DNA of 64,000 nt from Chiridota heheva (Eukaryota > Echinodermata > Holothuroidea > Apodida > Chiridotidae): NCBI GenBank assembly GCA_020152595.1, contig JAIGNY010001459.1, positions 1,452,501-1,516,500 of the forward strand. Direction: 5' to 3'. The position numbers and the translations under genes were made by a program. How positions within the stretch are numbered: the first letter of the stretch is position 1; every line of letters begins with the position of its first letter. The notes beneath the pieces are model-generated. The model did not search any database. It was not told the origin of the DNA and saw only the letters and a list, made by a program, of their open reading frames with translations. Shown piece after piece: positions 40,546-62,225 of this stretch.

Positions 40546-41425
40546 TATAATGGGTCTTCAGGAGGACATTTAATAGAACAGCTGTTGCGAATGAAAGAGG
40601 GTAGTAGATTTATTTATTGAGAAGGTAAAGCCCCTTCACCATAGAACCTTTAGTTAAAGGAATAGTTTAGTATTCAATCAAATCCACATCTTATTTGAAA
40701 TAGAATTTCAAAAGAAATGAAATAGGATTTTAAAAGGAAATTGGTAAACAAACATTTAAAAATCATGTTTGTTAAGGAGATATAAAGTTTAAAGTTGTGG
40801 CTGTTGAAAATGACTGGTGTAATAAGTATACTGTGTAAGGTTGGTGCTGTCATCCGCACATTCTAACAATTGTTTTTTTTCTTCATTTTGATGGTCTTAT
40901 TACCAGTTTATGAGTCATATATTTTATAAAAAGTAACAGAAAAAAAACACATAGATAAAATGGTATGGTATATATAAACAAATTAAAAAAGAAATACAAA
41001 TGGCTCGTTCGAAAGTATAGTTGCATAAATAAATACACTGATGATAGAAATGGAACTTCAAATGTATAAACTGTTGTTAAATTAACAATTTTTATTGTAT
41101 TTAAAAGAAAATTCATTTGACTTTTTTACTATTTAAATTATTTTTCCTTGAACTTTGTTCAGGTGGTAAATTATAATTATCCTTGCAAGATTCTATTTTA
41201 CTACTTTCCTGATATCCAATGGTTTTTAAGCCACCAAATTGCAGGAACAAGTTTGATAGAATACATAAAGACTTTGGGGAATCTGAGGCTGTGATGTCAC
41301 AACTAGTCTGATTTTAATTGTTTCTAAACAAATGATACCAAACTTTAAAGTTAAATATCTTCTTAACGGAATAAGATTTTTGAATGCTTTTTTTCACTAT
41401 TTTGTTTCTTTTGAAGTCATCTTTC
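40546..41425. other. FIRRM intron 4, nothing recognised
   Basis: AT-rich intron before the LINE fragment. Confidence 0.45.
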
Positions 41426-41429
41426 ATAT

Positions 41430-42775
41430 CAGATGGACTTGCTTAGCCTCTCCTATGCTTTTAGAGTCCTCACCAACACCCAGAACCCTGTTTACAACCT
41501 CATTAGGTACCCCAATTTCTCCTCCCTCTTTGATAGGACTAAAACCCTATCGCCTCCCTTCAGCTTACGCATTAAATCAGACCTCTTTCAACTTGGCATC
41601 AACCCCGCCACTCGGCACCTATTCCTGGCCCACTTTTCCGCCTTTGGGCCACCCCCTTCCTTCTGTCTACCTAGACCTCTCCACTTATAACAAAACTCAA
41701 ACTCACCCTAATCTCTTCATCAATCTCCACAACCAAATCAAAGACCAACTCTCAAATTACACCTCCATCTATACTGATGGCTCCAAGGAAGGCAACAAGA
41801 CAGCTGCTGCTGCCATCATCCAAGACATCACCCTCAGTAGCAGACTTCCTGACCACTCATCCATCTTTTCAGCCGAGGCTAAGGCCATTCTCCTCGCCCT
41901 CAACTTTATTGAGTACTCTCCTCTTAGTCACTTTGCCATTTTCTCTGACTCAAAGGCTGTTCTTACTTCATTACTCAATCTTAAATGGGATAACCTCACC
42001 TGCCACCTCCTCCTCCGAAACTCTTTTCTCCCACCCTCTGCAGGAAAAGTGTTCTTTTCTTCTGGATACCCAGCCATGTTGGCATCCCTGGCAATGACAG
42101 GGCTGATACAGCCGCTAAGCTTGCCCTTAACCTCCTCCCTTCCCCTTTTCACAAAACCCTCTCTGACATCAAACCGCTTTATCGCTTCTCTTGTTCTTGA
42201 CCGCTGGCAAACCTTATGGAACTTCCAAATTGATAACAAACTCCATGTTATCCAGCCCACAATCCCGATCAAATCCACCATCAACAACCTTTCTCAGATC
42301 GACAACGTTCATATTACCCGTCTTAGAATTGGTCACACCCACCTCACTCACTCCCACCTCCTTATTGGTTCCCCCAACCCCTCTGTAACAATTGCCACTG
42401 CATCCTCACAATCCAACACGTTCTCCTTGCTTGCCCCTGTACAACCTTCCCAGAGCTTCTCTCGCTCCCCACAACTCAATTGCTGAGTTCTTCCAAAAAA
42501 ATCCTCCAGATAAAATAGTCTCCTTCCTTCAGCATGCATCCCTCTACAACCATATTTAATTCTCCTCTTCCACCCCCTCTCTACTTTGTTTTTAGTTTTA
42601 CCCATGCACCTCCTCTCTCGATCACAGCTTTCTGGCTTTTGTTCTTGAATTTCTCTCATTCTTCCCCTGGTCTCTTTCCTTACTACCTCTAAAATGATCT
42701 GACCTCTCAGGCACAATTTGACCTTCGTTGTCGTGGTGCCGTTAAGACCTCATCAAACAAACAAACAAACATTGA
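41430..42775 (+). mobile_element. I-like LINE, 5'-truncated copy 2 (RNase H and 3' end)
   Basis: Closely follows 24605-25960: LSYAFRVLTNTQNPVYNLIR, YTDGSKEGNKTAAAAIIQDI, FSAEAKAILLALN and FSDSKAVLTSLLNLKWDN. The RNase H frame is open for over 200 codons. The end is the same CGTTGTCGTGGTGCCGTTAA tail with (CAAA)n. Truncated and inactive. Confidence 0.92.
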
Positions 42776-43178: not shown

Positions 43179-43332
43179 GACAGTAACGGAATATATGGTA
43201 ATGTCTTTGCATCAGTCTCTGATTTGTTGGCCAACTTATTCAAGCGAGCCTATGCGCTGCAAAAAGCGCTCATGACTTTACTAGAAGCGGTTGAAGTTGA
43301 AGGACGAGACTGCACAGATCTTACCGTTGAAG
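43179..43332 (+). CDS. FIRRM: FIRRM coding exon 5
   Basis: Acceptor TGTTTCAG, donor GAAG|GTAAAA, phase 1. It encodes DSNGIYGNVFASVSDLLANL then FKRAYALQKALMTLLEAVEV, one of the clearest matches to the human protein (SDLLQALFKEAYSLQKQLMELL). The ORF runs on into the intron, but that part has no family resemblance. Confidence 0.9.
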
Positions 43333-43584: not shown

Positions 43585-45303
43585 TTGTGAATACCAAAGA
43601 ACCTTACTTTAATCAAAAACAATATATACAAGGTAAGTCTATACAATATGGGTGAATACCAAAGAACTATACTAAAACAATATATACAAGGTAAGTCCAT
43701 TACAATAGCGGGTGAATACAAAGAACTTTACTAAAACAATATATACAAGGTAAGTCCATTACAATAGCGGGTGAATACCAAAGAACTATACCAAAACAAT
43801 ATATACAAGGTAAGTCCATTACAATAGCGGGTGAATACAAAGAACCTTACTAAAACAATATATACAAGGTAAGTCCATTACAATAGCGGGTGAATACCAA
43901 AGAACTATACTAAAACAATATATACAAGGTAAGTCCATTACAATAGCGGGTAAATACAAAGAACTTTACTAAAACAATATATACAAGGTAAGTCCGTTAC
44001 AATAGCGGGTGAATACCAAAGAACTTTACTAAAACAATATATACAAGGTAAGTCTATTACAATAGCGGGTGAATACCAAAGAACTATACTAAAACAATAT
44101 ATACAAGGTAACTCCATTACAATAGCGGGTGAATACAAAGAACCTTACTAAAACAATATATACAAGGTAAGTCCATTACAATAGCGGGTGAATACCAAAG
44201 AACTATACTAAAACAATATATACAAGGTAAGTCCATTACAATAGCGGGTAAATACAAAGAACTTTACTAAAACAATATATACAAGGTAAGTCCGTTACAA
44301 TAGCGGGTGAATACCAAAGAACTTTACTAAAACAATATATACAAGGTAAGTCTATTACAATAGCGGTGAATACCAAAGAACTATACTAAAACAATATATA
44401 CAAGGTAACTCCATTACAATAGCGGGTGAATACAAAGAACTTTACTAAAACAATATATACAAGGTAAGTCCATTACAATAGCGGGTGAATACAAAGAACT
44501 TTACTAAAACAATATATACAAGGTAACTCCATTACAATAGCGGGTGAATACCAAAGAACTTTACTAAAACAATATATACAAGGTAAGTCCATTACAATAG
44601 CGGGTGAATACAAAGAACTTTACTAAAACAATATATACAAGGTAACTCCATTACAATAGCGGGTGAATACCAAAGAACTATACTAAAACAATATATACAA
44701 GGTAAGTCCATTACAATAGCGGGTGAATACAAAGAACTATACTAAAACAATATATACAAGGTAACTCCATTACAATAGCGGGTGAATACAAAGAACTTTA
44801 CTAAAACAATATATATAAGGTAAGTCCATTACAATAGCGGGTGAATACCAAAGAACTTTACTAAAACAATATATACAAGGTAAGTCCATTACAATAGCGG
44901 GTGAATACAAAGAACTTTACTAAAACAATATATACAAGGTAAGTCCATTACAATAGCGGGTGAATACCAAAGAACTTTACTAAAACAATATATACAAGGT
45001 AAGTCCATTACAATAGCAGGTGAATACAAAGAACTTTACTAAAACAATATATACAAGGTAGGTCCATTACAATAGCAGGTGAATACAAAAGAACTTTACT
45101 AAAACAATATATACAAGGTAAGTCCATTACAATAGCGGGTAAATACAAAAGAACTTTACTAAAACAATATATACAAGGTAAGTCCTTTTACAATAGTGGG
45201 TGAATACCAAAGAACTTTACTAAAACAACATATACAAGGTAACTCCATTACAATAGCAGGTGAATACAAAAAAAACTTTACTAAAACAATATATACAAGG
45301 TAA
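43585..45303 (+). repeat. 60-bp minisatellite with a consensus splice donor, 29 copies
   Basis: The unit contains GGTGAATACCAAAGAACTTT, ACTAAAACAATATATACAAG and GTAAGTCCATTACAATAGCG. At the ACAAG|GTAAGT position I count about 21 units with GTAAGT, six with GTAACT, and one each with GTAGGT and GTAATA. Located in FIRRM intron 5, sense strand, 250 nt after the real, weaker donor GAAG|GTAAAA. Confidence 0.97.
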
Positions 45304-46168: not shown

Positions 46169-46296
46169 TTTGTCAGGGGTTCCATGCTTTGTGTAACATC
46201 ATAAGCAGCATGGACACCATGCTGATGGCAGCTTCTTGGAAATTTCTCATCAAATTTCTTTCAAGGCACAAGTCTGAAGTGGAAGATGACATTGAG
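46169..46296 (+). CDS. FIRRM: FIRRM coding exon 6
   Basis: Acceptor TTGTTTAG (not the CAG 8 nt downstream, which breaks phase), donor TGAG|GTATGT. It encodes CQGFHALCNIISSMDTMLMA then ASWKFLIKFLSRHKSEVEDD. It matches human CSVISSMDHAFHANTWKFIIK. Confidence 0.9.
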
Positions 46297-50331: not shown

Positions 50332-50545
50332 GGTATTTTGAACCTGGTTATTCTTATTTTGAACCTGGTTATTCTTATTTTGAACCTGGTTATTCTTATT
50401 TTGAACCTGGTTATTCTTATTTTGAACCTGGCTATTCTTATTTTGAACCTGGCTATTCTTATTTTGAACCTGGCTATTCTTATTTTGAACCTGGCTATTC
50501 TTATTTTGAGCTTGGCTATTCTTTTTTTGAACCTGGCTATTCTAT
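50332..50545. repeat. 21-bp minisatellite, about 10 copies, next to the exon 7 acceptor
   Basis: The unit TATTTTGAACCTGGTTATTC(T) changes from GGTTATT to GGCTATT along the array. It ends within 20 nt of the exon 7 acceptor. The FEPGYSY heptapeptide ORF is out of frame with exon 7. Confidence 0.95.
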
Positions 50546-50563: not shown

Positions 50564-50802
50564 ATCTTTCCTCTTGTCAAATCTCTTACTTCAGAGATCA
50601 GGTCTCACTTCACCTACTGCTTGATGCAAGCTCCTCTTCAGCCGGGAGCAGATGTACCCTCCTCTCAGGGAAGGAACAAGAAGATGTATTCCAAGACTCT
50701 CAAGATTTGCAGCTTGTGTGCTAAGATGCTGCTGCATTTGTTTGACAGGGCTGCGGAGGAGAGTTGTGAATGTCTTTTGGAACTAATGATACATTTATTG
50801 AG
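50564..50802 (+). CDS. FIRRM: FIRRM coding exon 7
   Basis: Acceptor TTTCCCAG, donor TGAG|GTAAGG, 239 nt, phase 2. It starts IFPLVKSLTSEIRSHFTYCL and includes KMYSKTLKICSLCAKMLLHL and EESCECLLELMIHLL. A 21-bp minisatellite (50332-50545) ends within 20 nt of the acceptor. Confidence 0.9.
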
Positions 50803-51820: not shown

Positions 51821-51824
51821 AGCT

Positions 51825-52437
51825 ACTCACCGCCAAGCACAGAAACTTCTTCCATGATTATGGAGAAGCTGCAAAGACTCCAACACTTTGTGAGACCCAC
51901 TAACCACTGAGGCACAGAAACTCCTCCCATAATTATGGAGAAGCTGCAAAGACCCCAAACCTTTGTGAGACTCACTAACCACTGAGGCACAGAAACTCCT
52001 CCCATGATTATGAAGAAGCTGCAAAGACCCCAACAGTTTGTGAGACTCACTAACCACTGAGGCACAGAAACTCCTCCCATGATTATGGAGAGCTGCAAAG
52101 ACCCCAAACCTTTGTGAGACTCACTAAACACTGAGGCACAGAAACTCCTCCCATGATTATGGAGAAGCTGCAAAGACCCCAACAGTTTGTGAGACTCACT
52201 AACCACTGAGGCACAGAAACTCCTCCCATGATTATGGAGAAGCTGCAAAGACCCCAACACTTTGTGAGACTCACTAACCACTGAGGCACAGAAATTCCTC
52301 CCATGATTATGGAGAAGCTGCAAAGACCCCAACAGCTTGTGAGACTCACTAACCACTGAGGCACAGAAACTCCTCCCATGATTATGGAGAAGCTGCAAAG
52401 ACCCCAACACTTTGTGAGACTCACTAACCAGTGAGCC
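51825..52437 (+). repeat. 75-bp array derived from the start of FIRRM exon 8, about 8 copies
   Basis: It opens with AGCTACTCACCGCCAAGCAC at 51821, a near copy of the exon 8 start AGCTACTCTCCACCAAGCAC at 52526. Eight units follow of GGCACAGAAACTCCTCCCAT, GATTATGGAGAAGCTGCAAA and GACTCACTAACCACTGA. Exon 8 reads AGCACAGAAGCTCCTCCCAT at the same point. Each unit has CTAAC followed 7 nt later by AG, resembling a 3' splice site. Confidence 0.93.
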
Positions 52438-52527
52438 ATTGCACTTTTCTTGCCCAATGAAGCAAAACAATTCCCTTTGAACTTTACTGTTTATTCCTTT
52501 CATTAATTTGCTTCCTTCATTTCTCAG

Positions 52528-52676
52528 CTACTCTCCACCAAGCACAGAAGCTCCTCCCATGACTACGGAAGCCTCGGAGGAGCTGTACAGAAGTCTTCTA
52601 GGGTTCACAGAACCATTGCTGCAGAGCTTGGTGCCATGTAGGAATTTTGCTGAGCATCTTCTTCATCCATCACAAG
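52528..52676 (+). CDS. FIRRM: FIRRM coding exon 8, flanked by arrays derived from its own edges
   Basis: Acceptor TTTCTCAG, donor ACAAG|GTATCA, phase 1. It encodes YSPPSTEAPPMTTEASEELY then LLGFTEPLLQSLVPCRNFAE and ends HLLHPSQ. It joins exon 7 as LLELMIHLL-SYSPPST, matching human LYLQIHSKFPPSL. Sequence like its first 50 nt is repeated upstream and its last 20 nt plus donor are repeated downstream. Confidence 0.88.
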
Positions 52677-53032
52677 GTATCATCTCTCGTTATGTTCTTC
52701 ATCCATCACAAGGTATCATCTCTTGTTCTGTTCTTCATCCATCACAAGGTATCATCTCTTGTTCTGTTCTTCATCCATCACAAGGTATCATTTTGCATTC
52801 TGTTCTTCATCCATCACAAGGTATTATCTCTCGTTCTGTTCTTCATCCATAACAAGGTATCATCTCTCGTTCTGTTCTTCATCCATCACAAGGTATCATC
52901 TCTCGTTCTGTTCTTCATCCATCACAAGGTATCATTTTGCATTCTGTTCTTCATCCATCACAAGGTATTATCTCTCGTTCTGTTCTTCATCCATCACAAG
53001 TTACCATTTCTCATTCTGTTCTTCTTCATTTT
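52661..53032 (+). repeat. 36-bp array made of the exon 8/intron 8 junction, about 10 copies
   Basis: The unit CTTCATCCATCACAAGGTAT plus CATCTCTCGTTATGTT spans the last 16 nt of exon 8 and its donor. The AAG|GTATC donor recurs every 36 nt at 52676, 52712, 52748, 52784 and onward. As 36 nt is 12 codons, the exon frame stays open through five copies until a TAA in the sixth (about 52850). Confidence 0.96.
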
Positions 53033-53394: not shown

Positions 53395-53565
53395 ACCATC
53401 CATTTGACCAGCAGTTTGGCAAGCTACTTACTTTGTTGAACACCATCAAGATCCTACCTCTTCAAGATGCAGAGGTTCACGATCGATATCACCTGGCGGA
53501 AATCTCTCCTGAGGATCCAGCTCAACAACCAATCATAAAGCATGTTTTAAGTGCTGTTTCAAAAT
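53395..53565 (+). CDS. FIRRM: FIRRM coding exon 9, probable GC donor
   Basis: Acceptor CTTCATAG. It encodes DHPFDQQFGKLLTLLNTIKI then LPLQDAEVHDRYHLAEISPE and ends IIKHVLSAVSK plus a split Cys. No GT donor keeps both phase and family spacing. AAAT|GCAAGT at 53565/53566 does: it gives SKC-YAEYTLP, the same length as human EQC-SGELSLP. A GT alternative at 53551 keeps phase but loses five conserved-spacing residues. Confidence 0.78.
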
Positions 53566-54292
53566 GCAAGTATATTTCCTTTAAGATATCAATCTTCAAA
53601 TAACTGTTCACAATTTGCTTGGATGATTTACCAGGGCAAGATTCAGATTTCTCATCAATTAAATTATTTTTATTTTGAGGTTTGACATAAAGCAACAACG
53701 AGAAAGTTGTGTTTCTTAAATTACCGATGATTTGTCTTAAAAAGGGCTGCATTTTTGTTTTTATTTCCCTTTTTTTTAGTGGTTTGGGGGAAGATGGGGG
53801 GAGGGGGGGGGGTCGGTGCTTTTGGTTGACCAAGTAAGATTTATTCCAAATTAATATATTGTAGTAATATATTAGTTCCCCTAAATATTGGATTTTGATC
53901 AAACAAGGAGGCTATTGCCACTTGATGAAGCCTGAGATTTTTAAACCATAACCATGCCACCCATTTCCTCAACCTCTTTTGGAAAATAAATTATGAGAAT
54001 AAAATTTAAGACCCATCTAGGAGGCATTTCCACCTGTTGCCACCAGCCCTGATCTTTCTGCCCTGACTTTCGTCTTTCATTACATATTTTTTGTTTCTAT
54101 TTTGTCCCCATTCAGTTCTCTTTTCTTCTGTTCCATCCAGTAATAATACGCCTTTAGCCCCAAACATAAGTATGCTCCTATCTTGGTGTTGGTGAATAAG
54201 CTCTCTGAGATCATTAGGACTGAAATTTGCCCCTTTTCATAGAAGCATAGTTGCAATTGTTGAAATGTTTCCATTCTTGGAATCTTTCACAG
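53566..54292. other. FIRRM intron 9, GC-AG type, no other feature
   Basis: Begins GCAAGTATAT and ends TTTCACAG. Contains a G-run at 53797-53812. Confidence 0.55.
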
Positions 54293-54521
54293 GTTATGCA
54301 GAATACACATTGCCAATCTACCTGCCAGGCATCATGAGCGATGGGAAACCTTACAGGTCTGTCTCCCTGCACGAGTACATCGTCACCCACATATGTGGGT
54401 ATGTTGCCACCCTTTCCTCAAATCACTTCGCTGTCGTTGAGAAGTGTCTTTTGCAGGCTGTCCTCAGTCAAGATACAAACTCGGCATTGGTGGCGATGGA
54501 TATCTGGTGTTTTATTGCTAG
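54293..54521 (+). CDS. FIRRM: FIRRM coding exon 10
   Basis: Acceptor TTTCACAG, donor CTAG|GTAAGT, phase 2. It encodes YAEYTLPIYLPGIMSDGKPY, SLHEYIVTHICGYVATL and LAVLSQ-type text ending SALVAMDIWCFIA. The last stretch matches human SLLAMDAWCFLAR nearly residue for residue. Confidence 0.92.
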
Positions 54522-55036: not shown

Positions 55037-55181
55037 GTTTGGCACTGCAGACCTTTGTGCCAACCATTGTGGCAGTCTAGCCAAACTTTTGAAGTCTTTA
55101 CCAGCCAATCACAATCCACAATATCTTCACTTGTGTTTGTTACTACGGAGACTGATTCCACTGATGGCAGCAGAAAGTCAA
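55037..55181 (+). CDS. FIRRM: FIRRM coding exon 11
   Basis: Acceptor TTCTGTAG, donor TCAA|GTAAGT, phase 0. It encodes FGTADLCANHCGSLAKLLKS then LHLCLLLRRLIPLMAAESQ. It matches human YGTAELCAHHVTIVAHLIKS and LSILLKRLFFFMAPP. Confidence 0.92.
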
Positions 55182-56435
55182 GTAAGTTAATATCTATGAA
55201 GAAAACTTTAATCTGAGATTAACCCTTTTAAATCAAAATGGATGCTTTTAAAATGTGGTCAAATTGACTTGCATTATAACGAAAATGATGTTCCCATTGA
55301 ACTTCTAATTTTTAAACAAATGTCAGGGCTAATTTATCATTTCCAATTGGAGTTTCTTTTGAAAATTCTCTTCATAATCGTTATATCATGCAGGCATGTG
55401 AGATTCAGCTATTTAGCTGATTTCACCTATTTTCCAAGCTAATTTCACCTATTTTCTGCATAATTGACAATACTTAGCTATTATGATGAGAAAATTGATC
55501 AAATTCAGCTACTTTTATAAATCATCACTCACATGTCTGATCATGTGTTAAATTATCATGTGTCAAACATACCCTCCTTACTCCCACCTTGTGTAGAAAG
55601 GTGTCAAACATGACCCCAACTCCCACCTTGTGTAGAAAAGTATAACAACTCACCAACTCATAACAACTATCAAAACATCCATCTCCACAATGCTTCCGTC
55701 CTTCAAAAACCAAACTTGTTTAAAAAAAAAAGATAAGTTTTTCGTACGAATTATGTGACTTGAATTTAAATTGATCTCTCCGGCACCATTGGCCATGCTA
55801 TTGGCATGCCGCCAAAGCAATGTGGAGAGGACCATGACATGTTTCTAGAATCTTTCCAGGTCTCTAGAAAGAAAGAGAGGAGGGAAAAAGGAAAGGAAAA
55901 GGAGATATAAAATACACCTTAAAAGTCGATTAAGATATAATCACAAATTAACAATTCTTTAAAGGCCACTAACCTGATATCTCTTGTTGACAATAAACAT
56001 TCAGATTTGTTATTGTTGTTGCAGTATATGCTCCCACTAATTTTTTTCAAGACTTTCTATAGTCCCAGAAAGTAAATGGATCTTTTCCACAGTCCCTGAT
56101 GTGGAGACTGCTGGATGAACAATAGATAGTTTTGTACCAAAGGAAGCTAAAATCATCAGAAGTGAATATTGATGGATTTGTGAAGTTAACTCCCCAAGCT
56201 CATCAGATAATAATTTAAAGCGTAATCTTAGCCAAAATAATATTTCCCGCTATTTATTGAATTAGAACGTTTAAATTGGGATATGGTTATGTTTGATAAT
56301 TATGCTGAATCTGCCTAAAATTTCTTTCTGGGGATATTCCTTGATGTTTGTGATCACTGTCCCCCCCCTTCCCTTCTCTTTCCCCCCTTCCTCCACTAAA
56401 ACCAAATCTGATAGACTAAATCCCCGTGGATATCA
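55182..56435. other. FIRRM intron 11, left part, nothing firmly recognised
   Basis: AT-rich, with a two-copy repeat TCCCACCTTGTGTAGAAA (55585 and 55620) and short paired stretches around 55390-55530 (CATGTGAG / CTCACATG). Confidence 0.4.
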
Positions 56436-56904
56436 GCAGGTATTTTAAAATCAATTCAAAATGGACATAAGCTCTTCCAAAAATACAAACTTAATCCTTC
56501 TCCACATCGTAAAAGTACTTTGAATAATTATACAAATACCCTTACTAATACCATTAGAAAGGCGAAGAAAATGTATTATGATATTCAAATTCAAATCAAT
56601 AAAAACAACAGCGCCAAACTTTGGAAGATTTTACATGGTATTCTTAATAAAGGTTGTAATAAAAATGTCAATGAATTATTCTTATCGGGTGATGGTCTTA
56701 CCAATGATCAAATTCGTAGTTCAAATAAATTAAAAAATATTTCTCTTCAGCTGCTAAATCATTGGCTGACAATCTACCGTCAATAAACATTGATGCTTTA
56801 AACTATGTTAACAGTTCAGTTAAAGATTCGTTTTTCATTTATCCTACTTCCGCTAAAGAAATCTCGCTCATTGTTTCAAAACTGAAACAAAGTAAGAGTT
56901 ATGG

Positions 56905-57185
56905 TAGTGATTAGTAATGATACTCTTAATGTATTAATCATGTTATTTTAATACACCTGGCACATATTATGGTTGGGATGAGATTAGTAATGATACTCTT
57001 AATTGTATTAATCATGTAATTTCAATACCCCTGGCACATAATATGGTTGGGATGAGATTAGTAATGATACTCTTAATTGTATTAATCATCTTATTTCAAT
57101 ACCCCTGGCACATATTATGGTTGGGATGAGATTAGTAATGATACTCTAAACGTATTAATCATGTTATTTTAATACCCCTGGCACA
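56905..57185 (+). repeat. About 74-bp repeat, four copies, of LINE RT coding sequence
   Basis: GGTTGGGATGAGATTAGTAA, TGATACTCTTAATTGTATTA and CCTGGCACATATTAT recur four times. The same text forms the EISNDTLN and PLAHIINLSF part of the LINE ORF. Confidence 0.9.
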
Positions 57186-57499
57186 TATTATTAATCTTTC
57201 CTTTACTACGGGCGTTTACCCTAAAGAACTGAAAGTTGCCAAAATTATTCCACTTTTCAAGGCGGGTGATGTCCAACATTTCTGTAATTATCATCCCATA
57301 TCTATTTTACCCTCAATTTCTAAAATCATTCAACATCTTGTTTATAACTGGCTTGATAATTTTATCTCTAAATATGACATTTTATACAATTATCAATTTG
57401 GTTTTCGTAGTAATCATGAGACTTATATGGCTGCACTAACATTCACTGATAAATTGCCCAAGGTTTATCTACTACAGCTGCTTTATTGCTGAATCTTTC

Positions 57500-59015
57500 T
57501 GAAGCTTTCGATACTATGGATCATTTTATTTGATTAAAGCTTTTAATACTATTGATCATTCTATCTGATTAGAGCTTTTGATACTATTGATCATTCTATC
57601 TGATTAGAGCTTTTGATACTATTGATCATTCTATCTAATTAAAACTTTTGATACTATTGATCATTCTATCTGATTAAAGCTTATGATACTATTGATCATT
57701 CTATCTGTTTAAAGCTTTTGATACTATTGATCATTCTTTTTGATTAAAGCTTTTGTTACTATTGATCATTCTATTTGATTAAAGCTTTTGGTACTATTGA
57801 TCATTCTAGTTGATTAAAGCTTTTGATACTATTGATCATTCTATCTGTTTAAAGCTTTTGATACTATTGATCATTCTATTTTATTAAAGCTTTTGTTACT
57901 ATTGATCATTCTATTTAATTAAAGCTTTTGATATTATTAATCATTCTATCTGATTAGAGCTTTTGATACTATTGATCATTCTATGTGATTAAAGCTTTTG
58001 ATACTATTGATCATTCTATCTGATTAGAGCTTTTGATACTATTGATCATTCTATCTGATTAGAGTTTTGATTTTGATACTATTGATCATTTTATCTGATT
58101 AAAGCTTTTGATATTATTGATCATTCTATCTGATTAAAGCTTTTGTTACTATTGATCATTCTATTTGATTAAAGCTTTTGATACTATTGATCTATTTGAT
58201 TAAAGCTTTTGATGCTATTGATCATTCTATCTAATTAAAGCTTTTTTTGATACTATTGATCATTCTATCTGATTAAAGGTTTTGATACTATTGATCAGGT
58301 TTTTTATCTGATTAAAGCTTTTGATATTATTGATCATTCTATCTGATTAAAGGTTTTGATACTATTGATCATTCCTGATTATCTGATTTTTGATACTATT
58401 GATCATTCTAGTTGATTAAAGCTTTTGATACTATTGATCTATTTGATTAAAGCTTTTGATGCTATTGATCATTCCATCTGATTAAAGGTTTTGATACTAT
58501 TGATCATTCCATCTGATTAGAGCTTTTGATGCTATTGATCATTCTATCTGATTAAAGGTTTTGATACTATTGATCATTCCATCTGATTAGAGCTTTTGAT
58601 ACTGATTATTGATCATTCTATGTGATTAAAGCTTTTGATACTATTGATCATTCTATCTGATTAGAGCTTTTGATATTATTGATCAGTCTATCTATTGATC
58701 ATTTGATTAAAAGCTTTTGATACTATTGATCATTATATCTGATTAAAGCTTTTGATATTATTGATCATTTGATCTGATTAGAGCTTTTGATACTATTGAT
58801 CATTCCATCTAATTAGAGCTTTTGATACTATTGATCATTCTATCTGATTAGAGCTTTGGATACTATTGATCATTCTATCTGATTAGAGCTTTTGATACTA
58901 TTGATCATTCTATCTGATTAGAGCTTTGGATACTATTGATCATTCTATCTGATTAGAGCTTTTGATACTATTGATCATTCTATCTGATTAAAGCTTTTGA
59001 TACTATATTGATCAT
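57500..59015 (+). repeat. 35-bp minisatellite grown from LINE RT motif A, about 43 copies
   Basis: The unit TTTTGATACTATTGATCATT plus CTATCTGATTAAAGC encodes FDTIDHSI followed by a stop. The array sits exactly between SEAFDTMDHF (57495-57525) and SVLLNKLFIYGIRR-type text (59020 onward), where an intact RT has a single AFDTIDHSILL. Confidence 0.95.
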
Positions 59016-60555
59016 TCTGTTTTATTAAATAAACTATTCATTTATGGTATCAGAAGAACTGGTCATGACTGGTTTAAAAGTTATATCTTTTTTTTAATAT
59101 GGGTGTTCCGCAAGATTCCATTTTAGGACTTTTATTATTATTTCTTATATACATAAATAATATTTATATGTCTACGTCTGAATATCCTGTTATTTGCTGA
59201 TGACACAACTGCATTTTTGCAAGGTCCTTCTGTGGAGGCTGCCATCTTATTAAATATTGCATGTGAATTCTCCCATATTTCTAATTGCTTAAATGCAAAT
59301 AAGGTAACTTTAAATAAATCAAAAACTACTTTTTTATTATTTGATAACAAATTTTTGAGTCAAACTGATTATATATTGAGTTTAGAAGAAATTTCCATTG
59401 TTGCATCATCTTATGCTAAGTTTGTATGTACCTTTATTGATTGTAGACTTGACTGGAAGAAGCATATCTCTTGTATATGGAAGAGGGCAGCACAACGAGT
59501 AGAATTCTTAACCGTCTTAATTATTTTCTTCCCAAAAGTGCCCCTTCGACTCTTTACAATTCCCTTATTCTCCCTCACTTAAGTTATAATCTTATTGTGT
59601 GGGAAACACTCACACCACTTTACTTAGGAACATATGCAAATTACCTAATGGAACTCACACTGCACCTTTTCAAAGAATTAGGCATTCCTAAATTATTTGA
59701 CATTTTCTGCAACCAGTTAGGGATATTCCTATTTCGGTTTGATCATGGCCTCCTCCCTAAGCTTTTTGATTCTTTTTTCAATTTCATTACTGCCCTCCAT
59801 TCACATAATACTCGATCAGAAAACCAAATGCATACTCCTCTACCATGTACTTATATTATGCAGTCTCAAGTACGATGTACAGGTGTTAAATTATGGAATT
59901 CCCTACCCATTACCATTAGAAATTTGTTATCGTTGTACACATTTAAAAATAAACTTACAACCTTTTTGGTAGGTAATACGCATAATCAGAATTAGATTTG
60001 TATCCATATAAACTATCTGTTTCCTAAATGTAATTTAATGTTTGTTTTTCATTCCTTTTGGGGAGGAGGGGTGCTTATCCACCAAAGAAGTTGTACATGG
60101 AATTGTTTGTTGGTAGTAACATTAGGGGTGTGAAGAGGCCAGGCAGGAGGAAGGATGGGAGGGAAGGGGTAGGATTGCATTTCTATTTACTATTATTATT
60201 CATTTTCAAGGGCCAGACTAGACAAGATGACTTATTTCTGGTCCTTTATCTTCTTTCACTTCGATACCACATCTTTATAGCTAAGTGTGTGTTCTATATT
60301 CTTGTTTCTTTCAAAATGTTTTTAAATATTCCATTGTCCAAAGTTCTTGCTATGATTTATGTATAGGTTGTTGTAAACTGATCTGAAGATAAAAATAAAT
60401 CAATGAAATTAAACCATGTGCTGACAACTTTTGCTTATGAAAAAACAGTTTTAAAAACTTCTGTTGTTAATTTCATGATTTATTTTGTTTGATTATTGAT
60501 TGCTAAATTGAATCTTTTTAAATCACATTAAGGCTCGATCTAATTTTTTCATCAG

Positions 60556-61516: not shown

Positions 61517-61732
61517 GTTCAATCACTGCACATGTTATGTAATATCAGTGAGTGCTTTGAAGGGTCTGAGGTCCCTGTCAATAACCAACTCTCAATATCA
61601 CTCTGTGAAGCTGTTCTACATCTGTATAAGAGGTTGCCATTGGATAAAACTGACCTTTCACCGCTGACATCATCTTTGTTGGAGTGTACAGGGTGCCTTT
61701 TGAACAAATTCTCTGCTGATCAGCTGTTTCAG
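61517..61732 (+). CDS. FIRRM: FIRRM coding exon 13
   Basis: A 216-nt, 72-codon exon with acceptor TCTCTCAG and donor TTCAG|GTATGG, phase 0. It encodes VQSLHMLCNISECFEGSEVP, SLCEAVLHLYKRLPL and ECTGCLLNKFSADQLFQ. Helix spacing matches the human segment ending LDPKLILQ. The reading frame stays open past the donor through a 51-bp tandem array to 62239. Confidence 0.85.
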
Positions 61733-61764: not shown

Positions 61765-62225
61765 TAGTGTGTATCAAGACTTACCTGGAATTGAAGGAAG
61801 CTGTCAAAGAATACATAGTTTGTATCCTGGGACTGGAGGAAGCTGTCAAAGAATACAAAGTGTGTATCAACACTTACCTGGGATTGGAGGAAGCTGTCAA
61901 AGAATACATAGTGTGCATCAACACTTACCTGGGATTGGAGACAGCTGTCAAATAATACATAGTGTGTATCAACACTTACCTGGGACTGGAGGAAGCTGTC
62001 AAAGAATACATAGTGTGTATCAACACTTATCTAGGACTGGAGGAAGCTGTCAAATAATACATAGTGTGTATCAACACTTACCTGGGACTGGAGGAAGCTG
62101 TCAAAGAATACATAGTGTGTATCAACACTTATCTAGGACTGGAGGAAGCTGTCAAAGAATACATAGTGTGTATAAACACTTACCTGGGACTGGAGGAAGC
62201 TGTCAAAGGATACGTGCTGAAGTTA
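61765..62225. repeat. 51-bp minisatellite after FIRRM exon 13, about 9 copies
   Basis: The unit is TGTATCAACACTTACCTGGG, ACTGGAGGAAGCTGTCAAAG and AATACATAGTG. As 51 nt is 17 codons, the exon 13 frame remains open to 62239. The antisense strand carries CCCAG|GTAAGTG, a consensus donor, in most units. Confidence 0.95.

Follow-up and report, generated by a model that had tools for sequence, protein, structure and literature searches.

The last exon bases and the 5′ splice site of exon 8 in a C1orf112/FIRRM-family gene of the holothurian Chiridota heheva lie within a 36-bp minisatellite, in which nine of ten tandem copies retain a donor. We consider it fairly likely, given the sequence of the copies, that this is a tolerated border-spanning minisatellite with a leaky and partly in-frame exon end, the use of the individual donors being predicted. 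The array itself is real. All coordinates below refer to the window, by which we mean the whole 64,000-nucleotide stretch analyzed (assembly GCA_020152595.1, contig JAIGNY010001459.1, positions 1,452,501 to 1,516,500 of the forward strand).

Results

The host gene belongs to the C1orf112/FIRRM family

Splicing of exons 7, 8, and 9 (Table 1) to those at 54293-54521 and 55037-55181 yields an open 311-residue protein that matches the Pfam profile PF14868 (DUF4487) with 191.9 bits across profile positions 32-349, against a curated cut-off of 25. The protein carries the segment MDIWCFIAR in exon 54293-54521 and thus contains the WCF tripeptide described as conserved in the family in the available text of PMC8164572. 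The host gene is a member of the DUF4487, or C1orf112/FIRRM, family. This identification was made with the Pfam profile, because a search for protein homologues of the joined exons returned 109 candidates, of which none reached E ≤ 0.001, and a single-sequence search of solved structures yielded no match at E ≤ 0.1, the query in both searches having a surplus glycine where exons 9 and 10 join. When the whole genome was searched for the family down to E = 10, it matched at four places on the host contig, two of which exceed the cut-off, and at one place elsewhere that falls below it.

Exon 8 reads YSPPSTEAPPMTTEASEELYRSLLGFTEPLLQSLVPCRNFAEHLLHPSQ, and skipping it breaks the frame. Its borders and phase, as given in a preliminary description of this DNA, are correct judging from both the reading frame and the Pfam score. 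The numbering of the exons is taken from that description, and the exon set of the gene is incomplete; three more exons were placed by eye, the last of which has no Pfam match at E ≤ 0.001. Exon 9 appears to be followed by a GC-AG intron (window 53556-53575), since the five-exon protein scores 191.9 bits with the GC donor and 177.0 bits with the in-phase GT alternative. Elsewhere in the window, 41287-42486 and 56415-59995 are likely retroelement remnants, judging from an RNase H-like match (E 8e-5, below the curated cut-off) and reverse transcriptase-like frames recognized by eye. An Rfam scan of the 64-kb window returned 0 matches at gathering score.

Table 1. Positions of the exons and repeat features discussed in the text (window coordinates; a vertical bar marks a splice border).
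Feature	Position	Strand	Details and basis
Exon 7, preceding exon	50564-50802	+	Ends in phase 2, AG|GTAAGG; joins exon 8 in frame
Exon 8, 149 bp	52528-52676	+	Acceptor TTTCTCAG|CTAC; donor 1 CACAAG|GTATC; phase 1
Exon 9, next exon	53395-53565	+	Phase-matched to donor 1; GC donor AAT|GCAAGT
Three more exons, placed by eye	43179-43332, 46169-46296, 61517-61732		Frame and position only
Ten 36-bp copies across exon 8 end and donor	52658-53017	+	In-register layout, Tandem Repeats Finder (TRF)
Copy 6, with in-frame TAA just 5′ of donor 6	52838-52873	+	Frame reading
Three-copy block, copies 3-5	52730-52837	+	Present again as copies 7-9 at 52874-52981
10-bp direct repeat TCTTCTTCAT at exon end	52657-52666	+	Partner at 53020-53029, just past the array; putative seed
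Degenerate copy of exon 8 acceptor and first bases, running into a 75-bp × 8 array	51823-52435 (TRF 51837-52435)	+	Alignment, TRF

Nine of ten tandem copies retain the exon 8 donor

Tandem Repeats Finder places the array at 52659-53024 with a period of 36, 10.2 copies, 91% matches, and a score of 606. Laid out in register, the copies cover the exon end together with its donor, and the earlier statement that the 36-bp unit spans the exon/intron border holds. The common core of the unit is TTCTTCATCCATCACAAG|GTATC. AAG|GT is kept in nine of the ten copies, with exon ends at 52676 + 36k (k = 0-8), and the donor reads GTATC in seven copies and GTATT in copies 5 and 9. Ten donors had been claimed initially, but copy 10 reads AAG|TTACC and has lost its site. 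Each of copies 1-9 also presents a pyrimidine-rich stretch ahead of AAG|GT, with 3′-site scores of 4.0-7.5 under generic frequencies.

The copies are not equally related to one another. Copies 3-5 and copies 7-9 differ at a single position in 108, so that a multi-unit block duplication probably came later, and their near-identity suggests, in the one assembly at hand, a later change in copy number. A sequence search of the 1.1-Gb assembly, performed with a tool that skips very common words, found the 36-bp unit at a single locus.

A second array lies upstream of the exon, and the preliminary description had derived both arrays from the two edges of exon 8. This derivation is upheld: the 36-bp copies span the donor, and the start of the 75-bp array aligns to the acceptor edge of exon 8 with a local score of 60, whereas the best of 300 dinucleotide shuffles reached 29. 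Moreover, when 241 bp of the 75-bp array were searched against the whole genome, window 52526-52569 was also among the matches, with 84% identity over 44 bp. The 75-bp array ends 93 bp 5′ of exon 8. Two further arrays lie close to other exons of the gene. A 21-bp array at 50334-50543 ends 21 bp before the exon 7 acceptor, across the likely branch-point region, and a 51-bp array at 61826-62213 starts 94 bp past the donor at 61732. The latter carries donor-like sites on the minus strand with scores of up to 12.8, and the plus-strand exon frame is open into it.

Family match and donor strength across the copies

Donors 1-5 keep the reading frame open and would add 0 to 48 residues, and donors 6-9 include one stop codon, the TAA of copy 6. 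Reading of the frame thus agrees with the earlier claim that donor choice would change the protein in 12-residue steps over five open copies. Against the family profile, models ending at donors 1-5 score 116.8, 110.2, 109.6, 108.9, and 108.3 bits, values that alone are no proof of disuse of donors 2-5 since a profile always penalizes an insertion, and removal of the last 12 residues of exon 8 lowers the score to 95.4 bits; the six models under comparison all contain the same surplus glycine between exons 9 and 10, and the donor 1 model scores 121.4 bits without it and 116.8 with it. When five exons are joined with the correct junction, donor 1 scores 191.9 bits, donor 2 scores 186.0, and donor 5 scores 182.9, and an exon ending at an in-exon GT (52637) yields 171.3. 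The family profile therefore has counterparts for the residues before donor 1 but for no part of the repeat, in support of donor 1 being the ancestral border; its exclusive use at the present day is a separate matter.

Scored with general metazoan frequencies that were not derived from this organism, the array donors reach 3.4 (2.4 in copies 5 and 9), compared to 6.2, 9.0, 11.2, 10.5, 9.0, and 9.1 for six other GT donors of the gene, and thus rank last among the seven GT donors scored. The in-exon GT at 52637, which has the same phase, scores higher than the array donors at 5.3 but comes with 20 bits less family match. Because the nine array donors are near-identical and weak, a mixture of exon ends would be expected. 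Donor 1 would probably be used in most transcripts and donors 2-5 at lower levels, the latter inserting 12-48 residues in frame, and donors 6-9 would give rise to transcripts with a premature stop. When donors compete, as in the work of Reed and Maniatis and of Eperon and colleagues, the intron-proximal site is reportedly often favored, a preference that would point to the later donors and the stop codon.

It is conceivable, albeit rather unlikely, that the array is instead fully silent, with donor 1 alone in use and copies 2-10 serving as inert intron. Donor 1 does give the best family match, and the stop in copy 6 together with the lost donor of copy 10 shows that the array is not constrained over its whole length. 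In addition, the gene has a 59-bp array within an intron (43616-45303) in which 28 donor-like sites can be recognized, 21 scoring 12.1 (CAAG|GTAAGT), and no exon is visible at any of the 28; such words therefore occur elsewhere in the gene and need not be used. However, copies 2-4 carry a nine-base donor identical to that of copy 1, so the site itself provides no basis for distinguishing among them, and in the comparable array of human ABCA7, discussed below, use of the second-unit donor was observed in cDNA.

A regulated switch of protein length, in which the choice among donors 1-5 serves to add 0-48 residues, is highly improbable in our judgment. The 36-bp unit does amount to 12 codons and stays open for four added copies. 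Yet the period is divisible by 3 in 11 of the 25 non-overlapping arrays of the window, such that being in frame is alone weak evidence; moreover, copy 6 contains TAA, and the profile score drops with each insert.

An unlikely U12-type origin of the donor

U12-type donors conform to RTATCCTTT (GTATCCTTT), and the corresponding branch site, TTCCTTRAY, lies at least 8 bases before the acceptor. We seriously considered that the exon 8 donor represents a U12-type relic or hybrid which was multiplied within the array. The array donor GTATCATCT agrees with GTATCCTTT at 7 of 9 positions; copies 4 and 8 reach 8 matches, and copies 5 and 9 have 6. The gene's seven other donors show 3-5 matches, and at least 7 matches occur at 2.0% of the 26,054 GT sites outside the array. 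The genome contains two matches to U6atac over the cut-off (L037 and L038, with 116 and 112 bits), and on the strength of these the organism probably has a minor spliceosome. As described in the available portions of two reports, human C1orf112 possesses a U12/U2 twintron whose ancestral type is U12 (PMC3564746; PMC8329584).

Several features argue against a U12-type intron. No branch site was found at the proper distance: in the best branch-site-like word, TTCCTTCAT, the A lies about 4 bases from the acceptor and is not preceded by a purine, and the word is not specific, as it also precedes the acceptor of exon 8 itself and occurs within a different array. The acceptor has an ordinary pyrimidine tract, and position +6 of the donor is A, not C. 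Finally, the human U12 isoform comprises 718 residues compared to 853 (PMC3564746, available text), so the intron position may differ. We do not accept the U12-type reading, to which we assign a very low probability, and keep it as a lead.

That the copy number is an artefact of assembly can be practically dismissed: short arrays are often miscounted in assemblies, but the copies here differ in a patterned way that includes a block duplication, and the locus is found once.

A proposed origin by duplication across the exon border

We propose that the minisatellite arose by tandem duplication across the 3′ border of exon 8. The direct repeat TCTTCTTCAT, present on both sides of the array, is the probable seed: duplication between its two copies would have created the first pair of units. 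Growth may then have proceeded by slippage or unequal exchange, with a later duplication of a multi-copy block. The additional copies would have fallen into the intron and been tolerated as nearly neutral there, because the unit carries a donor and the exon needs only one.

Splice-site arrays at other exons of the genome

Arrays of at least four copies with a period of at least 10 occupy 28.5% of the window. By the same criteria, arrays account for 47,732 bases in twenty 10-kb stretches of the same contig, or 28% of 170 kb (30 kb being N). The period lies between 15 and 90 bp in 23 of the 25 non-overlapping arrays of the window. When the 11 arrays between 43 and 64 kb were placed at random, the 16 exon borders were hit 6.4 times on average; 79 of the 20,000 placements left every exon covered by 20% or less, and in 46% of those an array still fell on one border or more. 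The presence of an array at a single border is therefore unsurprising in this region.

We surveyed 21 of 71 Helicase_C matches in the genome (20 loci), predicting exon borders with generic splice-site matrices. By eye, two of the 21 donors and two of the 21 acceptors at these predicted borders are situated in arrays whose units repeat the splice site. The donor CATAG|GTATGC of L041 adjoins at least 14 rows of 34-36 bp, and among the rows listed 8 of 14 read CATAG|GTATTAG and 6 of 14 CATAT|GTATTAG. At L045, the donor GCAGG|GTAAGTA occurs together with about 30 bp of exon end in six units of about 89 bp, counting the one at the border itself, and two of the six read GCAGA|GTAAGTA. The acceptor TTCCTCTCCTCAG of L040 is present three times, border included, in a 119-bp unit and is changed once to CTCAT. 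Lastly, the acceptor TGTAG|ATTT of L049 resides in a 41-bp array, some copies of which are changed.

A stricter test was applied to 29 exons, 21 from the helicase set and 8 from the FIRRM gene, in which 16 bases across the border had to occur at least twice more within 500 bp on the intron side with no more than 3 mismatches. Two of 29 donors and two of 29 acceptors recur in this manner, compared to 238 of 984 (24%) and 151 of 986 (15%) control points in the flanks, respectively. The control points, one every 10 bp in those flanks, are not statistically independent, neighbouring exons may contain some of them, and acceptors differ little from their controls. The two donors found are those of the exon 8 array and of L045. 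L041 scores 0 owing to an insertion and is a donor case by eye, and for L049 the acceptor chosen by the script differs from the one believed to be real (TGTAG|ATTT, which is also repeated).

A preference of arrays for exon borders finds no support in this control, in which borders recur less than intron points. Borders are thus not favored, and are probably hit less often than plain intron, as would be expected if selection removes many such arrays. From these sequences, the exon 8 array seems not to be unique in its own genome. More tentatively, and with the balance of our judgment against it, splice-site arrays may be routine at the borders of this genome, with several percent of exons carrying multiplied donors or acceptors and exon ends drifting or fanning out through the choice of copy.

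Discussion

The preliminary description knew of no case like the exon 8 array, but precedents exist in the human ABCA7 VNTR (PMC5954066) and in human tandem repeats at exon boundaries (PMC2812944). According to the available text of the former, intron 18 of ABCA7 carries about 12-427 copies of a 25-bp unit starting at the donor of exon 18, one unit retained through the next donor is seen in cDNA, and long alleles are tied to Alzheimer risk (PMC5954066). In both genes the array adjoins an exon and the tandem unit contains the exon's own donor. The two differ in that the ABCA7 unit is intronic, starts at the GT, and shifts the frame when retained, whereas the exon 8 unit includes exon sequence, measures 12 codons, and stays open for four added copies, with the C. 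heheva array being known from DNA alone.

The accessible part of a 2009 study of human segmental duplications describes tandem repeats at exon-intron boundaries, with average units of 30 bp in 4 copies, and 27 intron modifications in which the repeat either stays in the exon or is spliced out (PMC2812944). Minisatellites at exon borders are thus common to both systems, but the human examples occur in recent paralogs, whereas the gene described here was found once, in an array-rich genome. Zhuo et al. are said to have described ‘introns from tandem arrays’ in 2007. For an RdRp gene of potato, the text available likewise describes a tandem duplication that crosses an intron-exon boundary (PMC4974935). 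In these cases, as in exon 8, a duplication crossing the border supplies splice signals; there a new intron was gained, whereas here an exon gains possible alternative ends. Within the C1orf112/FIRRM family, a splice-site array is not mentioned in the available text of PMC8164572. The exon 8 array is a further case of a known arrangement, and its marks are the exon sequence in the unit, the 12-codon length, and the frame that is open for four added copies.

Competition between two donors is an old experiment, and nine near-identical tandem donors, five of them in frame, constitute a natural version of it. From the cDNA of this one gene it would become clear whether equal splice sites are distinguished by position alone. 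Judging from our small survey, further exons of this sort may exist in the genome, with donors as well as acceptors multiplied, in which case a single RNA-seq set could give a genome-wide answer. The wider interest lies with this genome, in which such arrays seem to recur; were arrays at exon borders indeed routine, the host gene would represent one in-frame exon-end ladder among thousands.
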